DNA of 64,000 bases from Brevundimonas subvibrioides (GTDB lineage: Bacteria > Pseudomonadota > Alphaproteobacteria > Caulobacterales > Caulobacteraceae), in the NCBI RefSeq assembly GCF_002280785.1, contig NZ_NCEQ01000001.1, forward strand, positions 186,001 through 250,000, given 5' to 3'. Each line of letters begins with the position of its first letter. Positions within the stretch are counted from its first letter, which is position 1. The notes under the pieces are model-generated. The model had not been told where the DNA came from. It worked only from the letters and a program-made list of their open reading frames with translations, and searched no databases. Positions 34,186 through 59,396 of this stretch are shown here, piece after piece. A program made the translations under genes and the position numbers.

Positions 34186-34303
34186 TCATCCCCGCGAAGG
34201 CGGGGCCCCGGTCTCAGGACGATGACTCTCGCCTGCGCGCCGTGAGGCGATCCCAGACGCCGAGCCTCACTCAAGCACTGGGTCCCCGCCTTCGCGGGGA
34301 TGG
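34186..34303. repeat. Intergenic hairpin repeat, family R1
   Basis: Arms CATCCCCGCGAAGGCGGGGC and CTGGGTCCCCGCCTTCGCGG are perfect inverses around a core with GAGGCGATCCCAGACGCC. It closes the metB downstream gap and ends about 30 bp before the stop of the PepSY-type gene. Confidence 0.85.
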
Positions 34304-50768: not shown

Positions 50769-51089
50769 ATGTCCGATCCTCTTTCCCGCAAGGCCGTGAA
50801 CAAGGCCGCCGACGACCGGATGGCGCTGTACGACGCCCTCCTGTCGCTGAAGACGCCTGCCGAGCTGGACGCCTTTCTGTCCGACCTGTGCACCCCCGCC
50901 GAACTGCGCGCCTTCGCCGAGCGTTGGGCCGTGGCGAGACTGCTGGACGAGAAGTCCAGGACCTATCGCGAAATCGCCGTGGAAGCGGGCGCCAGCCCGA
51001 CAACCGTCGTCCGCGTCGCGCGTTTCCTGCGCGAAATGAACCATCAGGGCTATCGCCTCGTCCTGGACCGAATGAACAAGAAAGCCTGA
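50769..51089 (+). CDS. TrpR/YerC/YecD-family regulator
   Basis: The 106-residue all-helical protein has the TrpR-like fold signature FLSDLCTPAELRAFAERWAVARLL and the helix-turn-helix TYREIAVEAGASPTTVVRVARFL, as in Bacillus YerC. It lies 7 bp before hisG and leads the his operon, suggesting a regulator of histidine synthesis. No ribosome site precedes the ATG, consistent with a leaderless transcript. An inverted repeat over the start region could be its operator. Confidence 0.9.
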   Translation: MSDPLSRKAVNKAADDRMALYDALLSLKTPAELDAFLSDLCTPAELRAFAERWAVARLLDEKSRTYREIAVEAGASPTTVVRVARFLREMNHQGYRLVLDRMNKKA

Positions 51090-51096
51090 CTTCCCC

Positions 51097-51978
51097 ATGA
51101 GTACCGTACAGGGGCGACTTCGCATCGCCGTGCAGAAATCCGGCCGCCTGGCCGACCGCAGCCTCGACCTGGTGCGGGACGCCGGCCTTCGCGTCGTGAA
51201 GGGCGCCAACGACCTGCTCTACAAGGTCGAGAACTATCCGATCGACCTGCTGCGGGTGCGCGACGACGACATCCCGACCTTCGTGGCGGACGGGGTCTGC
51301 GACCTCGGCATCGTCGGCGAGAACGTGCTGGAGGAAGGCAAGAACGGTGGCGCGAACGCCTCGGTGATCATGCCTCTGGGTTTCGGCAAGTGCACGCTGA
51401 AGCTCGCCTGCCCGCCCACGCTCGACTACGCTGGACCGGCCTCTCTGGAGGGGCTGCGGATCGCGACCTCCTATCCTAAGATCCTCAGGCGTTATCTGGA
51501 TGAGCGTGGGATCGGCGCCGAGACCGTCGTCATGCGCGGGGCCGTCGAGGTGGCCCCGCGGCTGAAACTGGCCGCGGCGATCTGCGACCTGGTTTCAACG
51601 GGCGCAACGCTGGAAGCCAACGGCCTGATCGCCAAGGAGACGGTGTTCGAAAGCCAGGCCGTGCTGATCCGGTCGCCCGTGGCGCCAGAGCCGGGGCTGC
51701 AGCACCTGCTGGATTCGATCATCGAGCGGATGGCCGGCGTGGTGTCCTCGCAGGGGGCCAAATATGTCATGCTGAACGCCCCGCGCTCCGCCCTGGACGA
51801 GATCACGGCCATCCTGCCGGGCGCCGGCGCGCCGACGGTGATGCCGCTGATGGGCCGGGATGATGCGGTCGCGGTCCATGCCGTGTGTCAGGAGGCCGTC
51901 TTCTGGGAGACGCTGGAGAAGCTCAAGCGGGCGGGCGCCTCGGCCATCCTGGTCCTTCCGATCGAGAAGATGATGTGA
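51097..51978 (+). CDS. hisG: ATP phosphoribosyltransferase (long form)
   Basis: The 293-residue protein is HisG-L: LRIAVQKSGRLADRSLDLVRDAGL, DLGIVGENVLEE, ATSYPKILRRYLDERGI, GAVEVAPRLKLAAAICDLVSTGATLEANGL, plus a C-terminal ACT-like domain (about residues 220-293, VMPLMGRDDAVAVHAV) that binds histidine for feedback inhibition. It starts histidine synthesis from ATP and PRPP. It does not need HisZ. Its stop overlaps the hisD start by one base. Confidence 0.96.
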   Translation: MSTVQGRLRIAVQKSGRLADRSLDLVRDAGLRVVKGANDLLYKVENYPIDLLRVRDDDIPTFVADGVCDLGIVGENVLEEGKNGGANASVIMPLGFGKCTLKLACPPTLDYAGPASLEGLRIATSYPKILRRYLDERGIGAETVVMRGAVEVAPRLKLAAAICDLVSTGATLEANGLIAKETVFESQAVLIRSPVAPEPGLQHLLDSIIERMAGVVSSQGAKYVMLNAPRSALDEITAILPGAGAPTVMPLMGRDDAVAVHAVCQEAVFWETLEKLKRAGASAILVLPIEKMM

Positions 51979-53285
51979 TGAAGCGGTTCGACTGGTCATC
52001 GCTGGATGCGGCGGGGCGGAAAGACGCTCTCGCCCGGCCGAAACGGCGCTCGGAAACGCGTGTCGGCGACGTGGTGCGCGCGATCTTTGACGACGTGCAG
52101 GCGCGCGGCGGCGAGGCCGTGACCGAGTGGGCGATCAAGCTGGACGGCGCGCCGCCGCGGCGCATCGCCATCACCGACGCCGTGGTCGCCGAGGCGCGCA
52201 ACGCCCTGCCCCCGGCGGATACGCGGGCGCTGCGGGTCGCGGCGGAGAATGTGCGCGTCTTCCATCAGGCCACGACGCCCGAGGATTCGAAACGGGTGGA
52301 GACGACGCCCGGAGTGACCTCTCGGATCGTCTGGCGACCCATCGGCGCGGCCGGTCTCTATGCGCCCGGCGGGACGGCGCCGCTGTTCTCGTCCCTGTTG
52401 ATGCTGGCCATTCCGGCGGGCGTGGCGGGCGTGACGACCCGCGTCGCCGTGACCCCGCCGTCGAAGGACGGTTCGGCGCATCCGGCCATGATCCTCGCCG
52501 CCGCCGAGGCCGGGCTCGACGCCCTGTGGCTGCTGGGCGGAGCGCAGGCGATCGCCGCCATGACCTTCGGCGTGACGCTCGACGACGGCGAGATTCCCGC
52601 CTGCGACAAGCTGTTCGGGCCGGGCAACGCCTATGTGGCCGAGGCGAAACGTTATGCCTCGTCGCTGCCCGGCGGGCCGTCGGCGGACATGCCGGCGGGG
52701 CCTTCGGAACTGCTGGTCATCGCCGACCGGTTCGCCGATCCGGAGCTGGTCGCGGCCGACCTGCTGAGCCAGGCCGAACACGACGCCGACGCCCAGGTCG
52801 TTCTGGTCGCCGACCGGGCCGCGACGATCGACGCGGTGCTCGAAGCGGTCGAGGCGCAGGTCTCCACCCTGCCCCGCGAAGCCATCGCGCGCGCGTCTCT
52901 GGCCGAGGCGCGGGCGGTGCTTGTCGCCGATCTGGCCGAGGCCGTCGCGGTGTCGAACCTCTACGGCCCCGAGCACCTGGCCCTGCATGTCGAGGACGCC
53001 GAAAAGCTGGTGCCCTCGATCCGGGCGGCGGGCGCGGTCTTCGTCGGGCGCTGGGCTGCCGAGACCCTCGGCGACTATGCGGCGGGGCCGAGCCATGTCC
53101 TGCCGACCGACGGCGGGGCGCGGACGCTGGGCGGGATCACCACGTCCAGCTTCATGACCTCCATGTCGGTGCAGACGGTGACCGAGGCCGGCGCCGAACG
53201 GCTGGGGCCGATCGCAGCGCGGCTGGCGCGGCTGGAGGGGCTGGAAGCCCACGCCCGGGCGGCGGATCTGAGGAGCGTGGGATGA
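51978..53285 (+). CDS. hisD: Histidinol dehydrogenase
   Basis: The 435-residue protein contains GAAGLYAPGGTAPLFSSLLM, NAYVAEAKRY, DMPAGPSELLVIAD, AEHDADAQVVLV and the signature LYGPEHLALHVEDAE. Zn and catalytic His/Asp residues lie in the HDAD and GPSHVLPT regions. It oxidises histidinol to histidine in two NAD-dependent steps, the end of the pathway. It is coupled to hisG (TGATG) and to the following fusion gene (ATGA). Confidence 0.96.
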   Translation: MKRFDWSSLDAAGRKDALARPKRRSETRVGDVVRAIFDDVQARGGEAVTEWAIKLDGAPPRRIAITDAVVAEARNALPPADTRALRVAAENVRVFHQATTPEDSKRVETTPGVTSRIVWRPIGAAGLYAPGGTAPLFSSLLMLAIPAGVAGVTTRVAVTPPSKDGSAHPAMILAAAEAGLDALWLLGGAQAIAAMTFGVTLDDGEIPACDKLFGPGNAYVAEAKRYASSLPGGPSADMPAGPSELLVIADRFADPELVAADLLSQAEHDADAQVVLVADRAATIDAVLEAVEAQVSTLPREAIARASLAEARAVLVADLAEAVAVSNLYGPEHLALHVEDAEKLVPSIRAAGAVFVGRWAAETLGDYAAGPSHVLPTDGGARTLGGITTSSFMTSMSVQTVTEAGAERLGPIAARLARLEGLEAHARAADLRSVG

Positions 53286-54709
53286 CCCTGCCCGCTCCCT
53301 ATGCCCCCCTCGTCTCCGGCGGCGAGGGCCTGGAGAACTATCCCGGCGAGGCGTCGGCGCTGCAGGCGCGGATGGCGCAGATCTATGGCGTTGCGGCCGG
53401 TCAGGTGCTGGCGGTGCGCGGCCTGACGCACGGGCTGGAGCTGGTCTGGCGGCTGGCGGCGCGCGACGGCCGGTCGGTCGAGGCGCCCGACGCCGAGCCC
53501 TATGCCGGACTGAGCCGCATCTATCGCGCCAGCGACGGCGAACGGGCGGCGGTGGTGATCCGGGCTCTGGGCTCTGCGGAAGCCGTGGCCGAGATGGCGG
53601 AACGGGTCGCGCCGGCCCTGCTGGTCGTCGACGAGGGGCTGGTCGAGTTCGCGGATGCGCCGTCGGCGACGACCCTGATCGCGGACCACGCCAATCTGGT
53701 CGTCCTGCGCAGCCTGTCGCTGGCCTATGGGCTGGCCGGGGCGCGGGTCGGGGCGGCGTTGGCGCAGGCGCACACCCTGGCCCGGCTGGCGGATGTGGTC
53801 GAACCCTACGCCCTGCCCGAGCCTCTGGTGCGACTGGCGATCCAGGCCCTGGACCCGTCGCGGATGATCGAGACGGCGGAGCGGATCGCCTCGGTGCGGC
53901 GCGAACGCGAGCGGCTGGCCCGCGAGATCGGCCGGGCCATGGTGGTCGAGAGCGGCGTCGGGCCGATCCTGATGGCGCGGCCATCGGACATCGAGGCGAC
54001 GCTGGCCGAGCTGGCAATATACGGCGTGGCGGCGGACCGGTCGGGCGACCGGCTGAGGCTGCCAGTTTCGATCAAGGCGGAGGTCAACGACCGGCTGTTG
54101 ACGGCGCTCGGCCTGGAGCCGGCCAAGACGCGGCCGCACCGGGTCGGGCAGGCCGTGCGCGACACGAAAGAGACGCGCATCGTCTGCGCTGTCGATCTGG
54201 ACGCGACCGGGCCGATCCGGATCGAGACCGGCGTCGGCTTCTTCGACCACATGCTGGAACAGGTGGCGGCGCACGGCGGGTTCTCGCTGCGCCTCCAATG
54301 CGAAGGCGATCTGCACACGGATCCGCACCACACGATCGAGGACAGCGCCATCGCCCTGGGCCAGGCGCTGAAACAGGCGCTCGGCGAGCGGCGCGGCATC
54401 CAGAGGTATGGCTTCGTCCTGGCGATGGACGAGGCCCAGGCCAATGTCGCCATCGACCTGTCGGGACGGCCCTATCCCCTGTTCGAGGGGACGTTCGCGA
54501 CGCCCTTCATCGGCGAGTATCGCACCGACCTGACGGCCCACGTCTTCCGCTCGCTGGCCGAGGCCATGGGGGCGGCGGTGCATATCTCGGTCACCGGCGA
54601 CGACGACCACCACAAGACCGAGGCCGTCTACAAGGGCTTCGGCCGGGCGCTGCGGCAGGCCATCCGGGTCGAGGGCGACGCCGTGCCGAGCACCAAGGGG
54701 GTGCTCTAG
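53282..54709 (+). CDS. hisB: HisC-like (degenerate) aminotransferase fused to imidazoleglycerol-phosphate dehydratase
   Basis: A 475-residue protein in one uninterrupted frame. Residues about 1-275 align by eye to histidinol-phosphate aminotransferase: YPGEASALQARMAQIYGV, LLVVDEGLVEFAD, NLVVLRSLSLAYGLAGARVG. In HisC the last motif reads LSKAFGLAG, with K carrying PLP. Here it is Leu147 (CTG at 53720-53722), and the GNGSDE and DEAY motifs are also lost, so this half should be inactive. Residues about 285-475 are intact HisB: FFDHMLEQVAAHGG, DPHHTIEDSAIALGQAL, DDDHHKTEAVYKGFGRAL (Mn-binding His/Glu). Only the dehydratase step is supported. A working HisC must be elsewhere. Confidence 0.88.
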   Translation: MTLPAPYAPLVSGGEGLENYPGEASALQARMAQIYGVAAGQVLAVRGLTHGLELVWRLAARDGRSVEAPDAEPYAGLSRIYRASDGERAAVVIRALGSAEAVAEMAERVAPALLVVDEGLVEFADAPSATTLIADHANLVVLRSLSLAYGLAGARVGAALAQAHTLARLADVVEPYALPEPLVRLAIQALDPSRMIETAERIASVRRERERLAREIGRAMVVESGVGPILMARPSDIEATLAELAIYGVAADRSGDRLRLPVSIKAEVNDRLLTALGLEPAKTRPHRVGQAVRDTKETRIVCAVDLDATGPIRIETGVGFFDHMLEQVAAHGGFSLRLQCEGDLHTDPHHTIEDSAIALGQALKQALGERRGIQRYGFVLAMDEAQANVAIDLSGRPYPLFEGTFATPFIGEYRTDLTAHVFRSLAEAMGAAVHISVTGDDDHHKTEAVYKGFGRALRQAIRVEGDAVPSTKGVL

Positions 54710-54720
54710 TGTTTCACTCC

Positions 54721-54845
54721 GCGCATCCCCGCGAAGGCGGGGACCCAGTTCTGTGGGCGATCGGAGACACCCGGTTTGTCGATGACTTCAATCCCGCGCA
54801 CCGTGCCTCGCAACAGCACTGGGTCCCCGCCTTCGCGGGGATGAG
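54721..54845. repeat. Intergenic hairpin repeat, family R1 (best copy)
   Basis: CGCATCCCCGCGAAGGCGGG and CTGGGTCCCCGCCTTCGCGG flank a core with GTGGGCGATCGGAGACACC, AATCCCGCGCACCGTGCCTC. Present inside the his operon between hisB and hisH. The core is shared with the copies at 5250, 56999 and 59265. Confidence 0.9.
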
Positions 54846-54857
54846 CGGTGTTTTCAA

Positions 54858-55454
54858 ATGATCGCCATCGTCCATCTCGGCGCGGGGAACACAGCATCCG
54901 TCCAGTTCGCGCTGGAGCGGCTCGGCGCCGAAGTCGTCGTGACCTCGGACGCCGCCGTGATCGCGGAGGCCGAGCGGGTCGTCCTGCCGGGCGTCGGGGC
55001 GGCGGGCTACGCCATGGAGCGGATGGGCGCCCTCGGCCTGACCGACATCATCAAAAGGTTTGAACGGCCGCTGCTGGGCCTGTGCCTCGGCCAACAGCTG
55101 CTGTTCGCCGAGAGCGAGGAGAACGGCGGGGCGACGATGCTCGGGTTCATTCCCGGACGGGTCACCCGAATGCCTGTCCGCGACGACCTGCCGGTGCCGC
55201 ATATGGGCTGGTCCCAGCTCCATGGGCTGGCCGACGACCCGATCCTGCAGGGCGTTCGCGAGGGCGACTATGCCTATTTCGTGCATTCCTACGTCTGTCC
55301 CGATACCGATGCGACCATAGCCTGCGCCGACTACGGCGCCGAGGTTCCGGCCATGGTGCGACAAGGCAATCGCTGGGGCTGCCAGTTTCACCCGGAGCGT
55401 TCGGCGAAGGCCGGCGCACAAATTTTGCGAAACTTCCTGGAGCTCGACGCATGA
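54858..55454 (+). CDS. hisH: Imidazole glycerol phosphate synthase, glutaminase subunit
   Basis: The 198-residue class I glutamine amidotransferase has VVLPGVGAAGYAM, the nucleophile motif LLGLCLGQQLLF (Cys), MGWSQLH, FVHSYVC, and the His-Glu pair in WGCQFHPERSAKAG. It releases ammonia for HisF. The motif GQQ replaces the more common GMQ. The stop overlaps hisA by 4 bp. An R1 repeat separates it from hisB. Confidence 0.96.
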   Translation: MIAIVHLGAGNTASVQFALERLGAEVVVTSDAAVIAEAERVVLPGVGAAGYAMERMGALGLTDIIKRFERPLLGLCLGQQLLFAESEENGGATMLGFIPGRVTRMPVRDDLPVPHMGWSQLHGLADDPILQGVREGDYAYFVHSYVCPDTDATIACADYGAEVPAMVRQGNRWGCQFHPERSAKAGAQILRNFLELDA

Positions 55455-56185
55455 TCGTCTATCCCGCCATCGATCTGCGGAACGGCGTCTGCGTGCGGCT
55501 GATGCACGGCCGGTTCGATCAGGTGACCGAGTATGATCAGGTCCCGGCCGCGCGGCTGGCGGCGTTCGTCGCCGAGGGCGCGACCTGGGTCCACATCGTC
55601 GACCTGGACGGCGCCGAGGCCGGCCGCGCGGTGCAGCACGCCCTGGTCGGCGAACTGGCCGGCAGTATCGAGGTCAAGATCCAGTCGGGCGGCGGCGTGC
55701 GCGACGTGGACGATGTGGAGCGGCTGCTGGCTGCGGGCGTGTCGCGGGTCGTGGTCGGATCGCTGGCGGTCAGCAATCCGACCGTGGTGGCGGGATGGCT
55801 GGAGCGGTTCAGCCCGGATCGGATCACCCTGGCGTTCGACGTTCGGGTCGGCGAGGACGGGGTTCCCGTCCCCTCGCTGAAGGGCTGGACCGAGGCGGCG
55901 GGGCTGGACCTCTGGGCGGCGCTGGATCGCTATCCGGTCGGGACGCTGAAACATGTGCTGATCACCGACGTGGGCCGGGACGGGGCGCTGACAGGGCCGA
56001 ATCTGACGCTGCTGGCCGAAGTGCTGGAGCGGCGGCCGGAGCTGAAGGTGCAGGCATCGGGCGGGGTCTCCTCGCTGGAGGACCTGCTGGCGGCGAAGGC
56101 CATCGGCTGCGACGGCGCCATCGTCGGTCGGGCGATCTATGAGGGCCGGTTCACCGCGCGACAGGCGATCGAGGCTGTGACTTGA
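55451..56185 (+). CDS. hisA: ProFAR isomerase
   Basis: The 244-residue TIM barrel starts [20 protein letters not shown], with the catalytic Asp in [26 protein letters not shown], and the second catalytic Asp in [16 protein letters not shown]. The internal two-fold (beta/alpha)4 repeat is evident from GGG-R and GG-x-S phosphate loops. It isomerises ProFAR to PRFAR for HisF. Coupled to hisH (ATGA). Confidence 0.96.
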
Positions 56186-56219: not shown

Positions 56220-56987
56220 ATGACGGCTCGACGCATCATCCCCTGCCTCGACGTCAAGGACGGCCGGGTCGTGAAGGGCGTGCGCTTCGAGGGGCATGTC
56301 GACATGGGCGACGCCTGCGAACTCGCCGCCCGCTATCGCGACGAGGGCGCCGACGAACTGGTCTTCTATGACATCACCGCGAGCCCCGAGGGGCGGACGC
56401 TGGACTATGGCTGGGTGAGGGATATCGCGCGGCTGCTGGACATTCCCTTCTGCGTGGCGGGCGGAATCCGCAGCGTGGATCAGGCGGCGGCCTGTCTCGA
56501 CAACGGGGCGGACAAGGTCTCGATCAACTCGCCGGCACTGGAGCGGCCGGAGCTGATCTCCGAGATCGCCGAGCGGCTGGGGTCGCAGTGCGTGGTCGTC
56601 GGCGTCGATAGTCGGCGCGAGGACGGCGCCTATGTCGTGCACAAATACACCGGCGATCCCGATGCGCGTCGCCTCGCCGGGCGACGGACGATGGACTGGA
56701 TCGTCGAGGCGCAGGAGCGCGGCGCCGGAGAGATCGTGCTGAATTGCATCGACCAGGACGGGGTGCGCAAGGGCTATGACACGGCGCAGCTGGCCGATGC
56801 GCGGGCGCGACTGACCATCCCTCTGGTGGCCTCGGGCGGAGCCGGGGCGGCATCGCATTTCCTCGACGTGTTCGACCGGGCGAACGTGTCGGGCGCGCTG
56901 GCGGCCAGCGTGTTCCACTCCGGACAGATCTCGGTGCCGGATCTGAAGGCGTTCCTGGCGGGCGCGGGTGTTGAGGTGCGGCAGTGA
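56220..56987 (+). CDS. hisF: Imidazole glycerol phosphate synthase, cyclase subunit
   Basis: The 255-residue barrel starts [22 protein letters not shown], with [53 protein letters not shown] (catalytic Asp) and [15 protein letters not shown]. With HisH it closes the imidazole ring, giving IGP and AICAR. It follows hisA by 34 bp. Confidence 0.97.
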
Positions 56988-56998
56988 CGACCCTCTCC

Positions 56999-57128
56999 AT
57001 GCATCCCAGCGACGGCGGGGCCCCAGGTTTTCAGGCGATCGGGCAGACCCCGGCGCGGGCCTCACATCAATCCCGGACGCCGTGCGTCGCAAACGAACTG
57101 GGTCCCCGCCTTCGCGGGGATGCACGGA
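56999..57128. repeat. Intergenic hairpin repeat, family R1
   Basis: Left arm GCATCCCAGCGACGGCGGGG (degenerate) and right arm CTGGGTCCCCGCCTTCGCGG (perfect), core CAGGCGATCGGGCAGACCC, CATCAATCCCGGACGCCGTG. Lies between hisF and hisIE in the same orientation as the 54721 and 59265 copies. Confidence 0.85.
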
Positions 57129-57135
57129 ACCCAAG

Positions 57136-57759
57136 ATGATCGATCCATCCAGCCTCGACTTCGCAAAGGGCGCCGGCCTGATCCCAGCCGTGGTGCAGGA
57201 CGCCGACACCCTCCAGGTGCTGACGCTCGCCTATATGGATCGGGCGGCGCTGGAGGAGACGATCGAGAGCGGCGAGGCGACCTTCTTCTCGCGCTCGCGG
57301 GGCGGCCGGTGGCGCAAGGGCGAGACCAGTGGCAACCGGCTGACGGTCGTGTCGATCACGCCCGACTGCGACGGCGACGCCCTGGTGCTGGCGGTGCGGC
57401 CGATGGGACCGGCCTGTCACCTCGGGACGACCAGCTGTTTCGGCGATGCGGACGCGCCGGGCCTGGGCCGTATCGCGCGGCTGGAACGGACCATCGCCGA
57501 ACGCGCGAGCGCCGATCCGGAGAGCAGCTGGACGGCGAAACTCCTGGCGCAGGGGCCCAAGCGGGCCGCACAGAAGGTCGGCGAGGAGGGCGTGGAGACG
57601 GCCCTGGCCGGCGCCGCCGGGCCTGATGAAGAGGTCGCATCCGAAGCGGCGGACCTGATCTACCACTTGCTCGTTCTGTTACGGGCGCGTCACTTGTCGT
57701 TTCAGGCGGTGCTGGACGTGTTGGCCTCGCGCGAGCGACCGGCCAAACAACCACAATAG
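57136..57759 (+). CDS. hisI: Bifunctional phosphoribosyl-AMP cyclohydrolase / phosphoribosyl-ATP pyrophosphatase
   Basis: The 207-residue HisIE fusion. HisI spans about residues 1-110: [38 protein letters not shown], the metal motif [23 protein letters not shown]. HisE spans 115-207: [36 protein letters not shown]. It carries out steps 2 and 3 of histidine synthesis. ATG 57136 follows an R1 repeat, so the upstream open frame is discounted. It closes the his operon. Confidence 0.96.
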
Positions 57760-59264: not shown

Positions 59265-59396
59265 CTCCGTGCATCCCCGCGAAGGCGGGGCCCCAGGCCT
59301 TTGGGCGATCAGCGGCGCCGTGTGAGCCCAGCCGCCAAGTCCAGACGTTGGGCCTCACGACAGAACTGGGTCCCCGCCTTCGCGGGGATGCACGGA
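59265..59396. repeat. Intergenic hairpin repeat, family R1
   Basis: GTGCATCCCCGCGAAGGCGG and CTGGGTCCCCGCCTTCGCGG flank TTTGGGCGATCAGCGGCGCC. It sits between zwf and pgl. Together with the 54721 and 56999 copies it is the third same-oriented insertion in 4.7 kb. Confidence 0.9.

Follow-up and report, generated by a model that had tools for sequence, protein, structure and literature searches.

A HisC-derived domain lacking the catalytic lysine is fused to HisB in Brevundimonas and some of its relatives

Results

The window analysed here is a stretch of 64,000 nucleotides from the 3.3 Mb genome of a Brevundimonas subvibrioides strain. It carries, on the forward strand, a his operon in the order TrpR-family gene, hisG, hisD, fusion gene, hisH, hisA, hisF and hisIE. 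The TrpR-family gene at the head (50769..51089, PF01371) is HisR-like and probably encodes HisR; according to the available part of PMC9413887, most proteobacterial his operons begin with hisR. It is followed by a long form of hisG with a C-terminal domain (51097..51978, PF01634 and PF08029) and by hisD (51975..53285, start assumed, Pfam PF00815 with 452.5 bits), whose stop overlaps the start of the fusion gene in an ATGA (53282..53285). Downstream of the fusion (53282-54709, 475 aa plus stop) lie hisH (54858..55454, PF00117), hisA (55451..56185, start assumed, PF00977), hisF (56220..56987, PF00977) and hisIE (57133..57759, start assumed, PF01502 and PF01503).

An inverted-repeat element with arms of 39 nt that are 92 % complementary is located between hisB and hisH (window 54716-54851), with a second copy 5' of hisIE (56995-57128) and further copies near 59272-59390 and 34187-34302. 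The 25-nt core of the element is matched 30 times in the genome at no more than 2 mismatches, compared to 0 for the control, and the matches are mostly found as +/− pairs with a spacing of about 95 nt.

The initial annotation described the fusion as HisB joined to an aminotransferase-like domain, and this holds: a single gene encodes an Aminotran_1_2 match (55.9 bits, aa 100-221) and an IGPD match (PF00475, 191.5 bits, aa 316-457). We delimit a degenerate HisC domain at aa 1-280 (53282..54121) and a HisB, or imidazoleglycerol-phosphate dehydratase, domain at aa 287-475 with the stop (54140..54709). The HisB domain was said to be intact and it is. The fusion scores 235.7 bits over 231 with NF002111, and His323, His349, His350, Glu353, His420, His443, His444 and Glu447, and with them both HHxxE metal-binding motifs, are invariant in a 20-row alignment.

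The full-length AlphaFold model has a mean pLDDT of 86.5, with blocks of 82-96 in the N-terminal half and only 67-68 in the first 20 residues; its pTM of 0.58 leaves the relative arrangement of the two domains unsure. In a fold search against pdb and pdb_via, residues 13-280 of the predicted N-terminal half superpose on HisC (7szp, 1gey and others) with Z of about 28 and rmsd of about 2 over about 262 residues, and the predicted HisB half superposes on IGPD with Z of about 28 over about 181 residues.

Despite its predicted HisC fold, the N-terminal half reaches only 99.8 bits against the TIGR01141 HisC cut-off of 276.55. A phmmer alignment to E. coli HisC (1fg3) places residues 111-219 of the fusion on 178-286 without a gap, and therefore Leu147 (codon CTG, 53720..53722) corresponds to E. 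coli residue 214, the PLP lysine in LSKA, in agreement with the initial annotation. The other motif changes it pointed to are also found, GxDE being replaced by GLTHG with loss of the acidic residues and DEAY by DEGL with loss of the Tyr. Beyond these, the half has lost two segments. About 35 residues are missing at the N-terminus (model residue 13 equals E. coli 48) and about 30-32 internally, with 43 residues between positions 57 and 100 compared to a median of 75 in 43 Lys-bearing rows; the internal loss includes the NNPTG loop present in full-length HisC-HisB fusions and stand-alone HisC.

Some of the old active site is kept. Asp117-Glu118 is invariant in all 90 rows of the alignment, Ser146 and Arg155 are retained in Brevundimonas, and Arg259 is retained in 94 % of Brevundimonas rows and 87 % of the other Lys-less rows. 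At position 252 every Lys row has Arg, Asp prevails in Brevundimonas, and Glu is found in about half of the remaining Lys-less rows. Tyr20, the Tyr of the RYP motif, which may reach across the HisC dimer, is kept by 97 % of the Brevundimonas rows and by none of the Lys-less rows shown from outside the genus. The best-conserved stretch of the half is segment 141-160 around the position of the old Lys (0.94 in Brevundimonas versus 0.925 for HisB). Four derived residues, His50, Ser144, Glu174 and Pro228, are common to most Lys-less rows and absent from the 43 Lys rows; Glu174 and Pro228 are found in 32/32 Brevundimonas rows and in 13/15 and 14/15 of the other Lys-less rows, respectively.

The initial annotation proposed searching other genomes for the same fusion and checking whether Leu147 is conserved. 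The half is matched in 117 of 131 genomes of the genus at E ≤1e-15; 115 of these matches look by identity like the present type (≥46 %, a few being fragments at contig ends) and two (G111 and G372) are of the Lys type. The Lys column was read in 46 distinct sequences from the 115 genomes, counted after removal of the exact duplicates L043, L238, L241 and L248, and none carries Lys: 44 have Leu, one Met and one Ser. Because the pattern recurs in 46 distinct sequences it is not due to chance, and these sequences rule out a strain-specific loss or a sequencing artefact. One single-contig assembly (G363:C1, about 2007627-2007645, L235) has a frame break inside the dead half that may be a sequencing error.

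IGPD was searched in the 14 genomes of the genus without the half and was not found in 13 of them; the 14th, G387, has it at a contig start, with aa 253-475 present and the gene cut by the contig end. No stand-alone HisB was seen in these 14 genomes or in G111. Four of the 14 are less than 90 % complete, and in G230 HisB may be lost to an assembly gap, since HisD sits at the contig start. The genomes without IGPD also include G081, G331, G343, G352, G353, G364, G366, G386 and G393; in G081, which is 100 % complete, HisD was not found either. These genomes are possibly histidine auxotrophs, or they may reflect gaps in fragmented assemblies.

Across the order, 224 of 299 genomes match the half at E ≤0.001, many of the matches being ordinary aminotransferases. 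Lys-less versions occur in another genus of the same family and in two further families, and all 15 Lys-less rows outside the genus have Q, L, A, Y, I, M, S or a gap at the Lys position, the column by which Lys and Lys-less rows were themselves sorted. L162 and L165 (genus g27, family f3) have a still shorter half with a gap at the Lys position. In L055, from a Hyphomonadaceae MAG, a 634-aa ORF joins HisD directly to HisB and the HisC half is gone; HisB of this kind can therefore do without it.

Full-length fusions that retain the Lys are present in 28 sampled genomes of the order, one of which belongs to this genus. They occur in families f4 and f5 and in the genus itself (G111 and L050), as well as in MAGs labelled Balneolaceae, Bacteroidales, Cyclobacteriaceae, Burkholderiales and Neisseriaceae. 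The initial annotation held that Lys-bearing orthologues would reveal a local loss. Such orthologues do exist, but the loss is not local to this strain, and they likely represent the ancestral state.

The presence of a second hisC, also raised by the initial annotation, is confirmed. The genome has one HisC above the TIGR01141 cut-off, full-length and with its Lys in an FSK motif (G000:C26:47875-48924, 290.5 bits); it matches the dead half weakly (29 % over about 120 aa, E 2.4e-6). A separate HisC above the cut-off is found in 36 of 38 genomes with a Lys-less fusion versus 7 of 28 with a Lys fusion, the other 21 having no further HisC above the cut-off (Fisher p 2e-9, computed on related genomes that are not independent cases; G241, with the Lys-less L171, was left out). 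The two Lys-less exceptions are G094, which is 1 bit short, and G291, which has none in a genome that is 65 % complete. Of three further Lys-fusion genomes, G404 and G406 have both genes and G405 has the fusion only. The L055 genome also has a separate HisC.

Rows were dropped when they lay at a contig edge (L048, L058), repeated the genes of another row (L166 those of L039, L176 those of L179), held a broken gene (L177, L178) or lacked HisB (L185) or the HisC half (L055). We built trees from HisB alone and from HisD+HisB+HisH after thinning near-identical rows. In the HisB tree, seven stand-alone HisB from other members of the order group apart in a clade of their own (100/99) and the Lys-less Brevundimonas clade lies inside the fusion clade beside the Lys-bearing L050/L179 (94/89). 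The HisD+HisB+HisH tree gives the same neighbours (98/94) and a second Lys-less clade made of family f3 plus L040 (100/98). The ancestor was probably a bifunctional HisC-HisB fusion, given the surviving Lys-bearing fusions, most of which are accompanied by no other HisC above the cut-off.

Left free, the trees need 5 (HisB) or 4 (HisD+HisB+HisH) changes at the Lys, and the starred branches force at least three. L170 (G099) is a separate full-length fusion in which the Lys is replaced by Ser, and a single origin of all Lys-less halves including L170 is rejected by the AU test on HisD+HisB+HisH (p 4.6e-6; LG+G4, 30 rows chosen from 61), the value for HisB alone being 0.054. One origin without L170 is not rejected, with p 0.15 (HisB) and 0.27 (HisD+HisB+HisH), or 0.37 for the latter when L174 is removed as well. 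At nine sites the two Lys-less clades have in common, in most of their rows, a residue that no Lys row carries; L174 has five of them and L050/L179 none. These shared derived residues favour one origin of the Lys-less halves with the exception of L170, and a single loss may be common to Brevundimonas, family f3 and G260.

The dead half is under purifying selection, with a constraint that is real but relaxed. By NG86 estimates, with L235 left out for its frame break, the eight closest Brevundimonas pairs have a dN/dS of 0.15-0.25 for the N-terminal half and of 0.03-0.06 for HisB. The medians are 0.35 and 0.15 over 985 related, non-independent pairs and 0.52 and 0.18 over 15 Lys-less pairs outside the genus; ten active-fusion pairs, most of them distant, yield 0.45 and 0.33. 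The median dN ratio of the half to HisB is 3.2 in Brevundimonas, 3.1 in the other Lys-less fusions and 1.6 in the ten pairs of active fusions. Both the dN ratio of about 3 and the dN/dS of 0.52 outside the genus fit a relaxed constraint.

Discussion

The initial annotation suggested a pseudoenzyme retained as a domain, with scaffolding or channelling as a possible role, or a relic. Sequence evidence supports the retained pseudoenzyme well, while scaffolding and channelling are hypothetical roles, the half being genus-wide, predicted to fold, constrained at dN/dS below 1 and accompanied by a separate HisC; judged by its sequence, the half is most likely non-catalytic. We lean towards the explanation that a former HisC was retired as an enzyme and retained as a structural half of HisB. 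HisC uses the product of HisB, imidazole-acetol phosphate, and an ancestral fusion would have combined both activities, the IGP dehydratase and the next enzyme of the pathway. Once a separate HisC covered the transamination, the fused half could have lost catalysis, an order of events that we infer. The half would then have been retained for the sake of HisB, whose folding, assembly or stability would rely on a folded N-terminal partner domain.

The main rival to the structural-half explanation, which we consider rather unlikely, is that the half has no role and has stayed because HisB follows it in frame. A misfolded N-terminal half would harm HisB, so that selection would keep only foldability during a slow shrinkage. 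The faster evolution of the half, its shortening in L162 and L165, its complete loss in L055 and the frame break in G363, if not an error, are all in line with such a relic. Against it, in-frame deletions could have occurred, yet the genus genomes searched held no stand-alone HisB; moreover segment 141-160 is as conserved as HisB, and Glu174 and Pro228 are shared among Lys-less rows and found in 0/43 Lys rows. Alternatively, it is conceivable that the half was turned by enzyme retirement into a regulatory or assembly domain that controls HisB oligomer assembly or HisB activity much as HisZ controls HisG, a metabolite or the separate HisC being its possible binding partner. This proposal is a speculative one; if true, His50, Ser144, Glu174 and Pro228 would mark the new function.

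More specific roles appear less probable still. Catalytically dead subunits pair with active partners in other systems and HisC is a dimer, so the half might dock the separate HisC and hand over to it the product of HisB, as the conservation of the old active-site segment could suggest; the weak match of the separate HisC, the missing N-terminal arm and the restriction of Tyr20 to Brevundimonas among the rows shown make this improbable. We give even less credit to a sensor in which the emptied pocket binds histidine, histidinol phosphate or PLP and tunes HisB: the retention of Asp117-Glu118 and Arg259 speaks for it, but the Arg at position 252 is mostly replaced in Brevundimonas and often elsewhere, and the DEAY Tyr and the NNPTG loop are gone. 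Finally, an aminotransferase that still works without its Lys could draw on the fold and on Asp117, Ser146 and Arg155, which are kept in Brevundimonas. The half lacks Lys, NNPTG and the DEAY Tyr, however, the genome encodes a separate HisC, and the residue at the Lys position varies freely outside the genus, and we regard such an activity as extremely improbable.

Compared to known proteins, the half shares the fold of HisC (E. coli 1fg3/1gew, Klebsiella 7szp) and keeps in the genus the Asp-Glu of DEAY and the Ser and Arg of SK...R, but it lacks the Lys, NNPTG and the N-terminal arm, and GxDE and DEAY are changed. Relative to IGPD of Medicago (8qax) and Arabidopsis (4mu0) the HisB domain is complete with its His and Glu residues intact, whereas elsewhere its N-terminus is bare or carries a phosphatase instead of a dead HisC.

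SPTLC1 of serine palmitoyltransferase is likewise a PLP-fold subunit without the Lys, but it pairs with an active paralogue, a pairing that is only putative for the fused half. HisZ, the histidyl-tRNA-synthetase-like regulator of HisG, is a protein resembling a former enzyme. The available portion of the literature describes it as activating HisGS. Like the fused half it belongs to histidine biosynthesis without its old catalysis, but it forms a subunit of its own whose regulatory role has been demonstrated, a role that is only putative for the half. Enterobacterial HisNB, a phosphatase-IGPD fusion in the his operon according to the accessible part of PMC8305728, also places another domain of the his pathway at the N-terminus of IGPD within a his operon; the partner here differs in being derived from HisC and, by its residues, apparently inactive.

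No HisC-HisB fusion or dead HisC is described in the open-licence PMC titles and abstract starts searched. The 'hisC-hisB' of PMC6432763 refers to a Corynebacterium operon, and the word 'fusion' is absent from the available part of that article. The his genes that a 2007 survey names in its accessible part as taking part in fusions are hisA, B, D, E, F, H, I and N, with hisC missing (PMC1963479). Section 14 of PMC8305728, as far as available, mentions an unrecognised N-terminal domain in HisB of Balneolota. In L056 and L057 from Balneolaceae, which may not be the strains of that article, the N-terminal domain of HisB is a full-length HisC with its Lys.

A single order thus holds a graded series that runs from the fusion with Lys to a full-length fusion with Ser (L170), a truncated dead half under selection, shorter halves (L162, L165) and a HisB from which HisC is gone (L055). 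Together with the contrast in separate HisC, this series allows the retirement of an enzyme into a domain to be tested directly, related species serving as controls. As read from their sequences, Brevundimonas and some relatives would offer successive natural stages in which an enzyme becomes a non-catalytic domain that is rarely lost.
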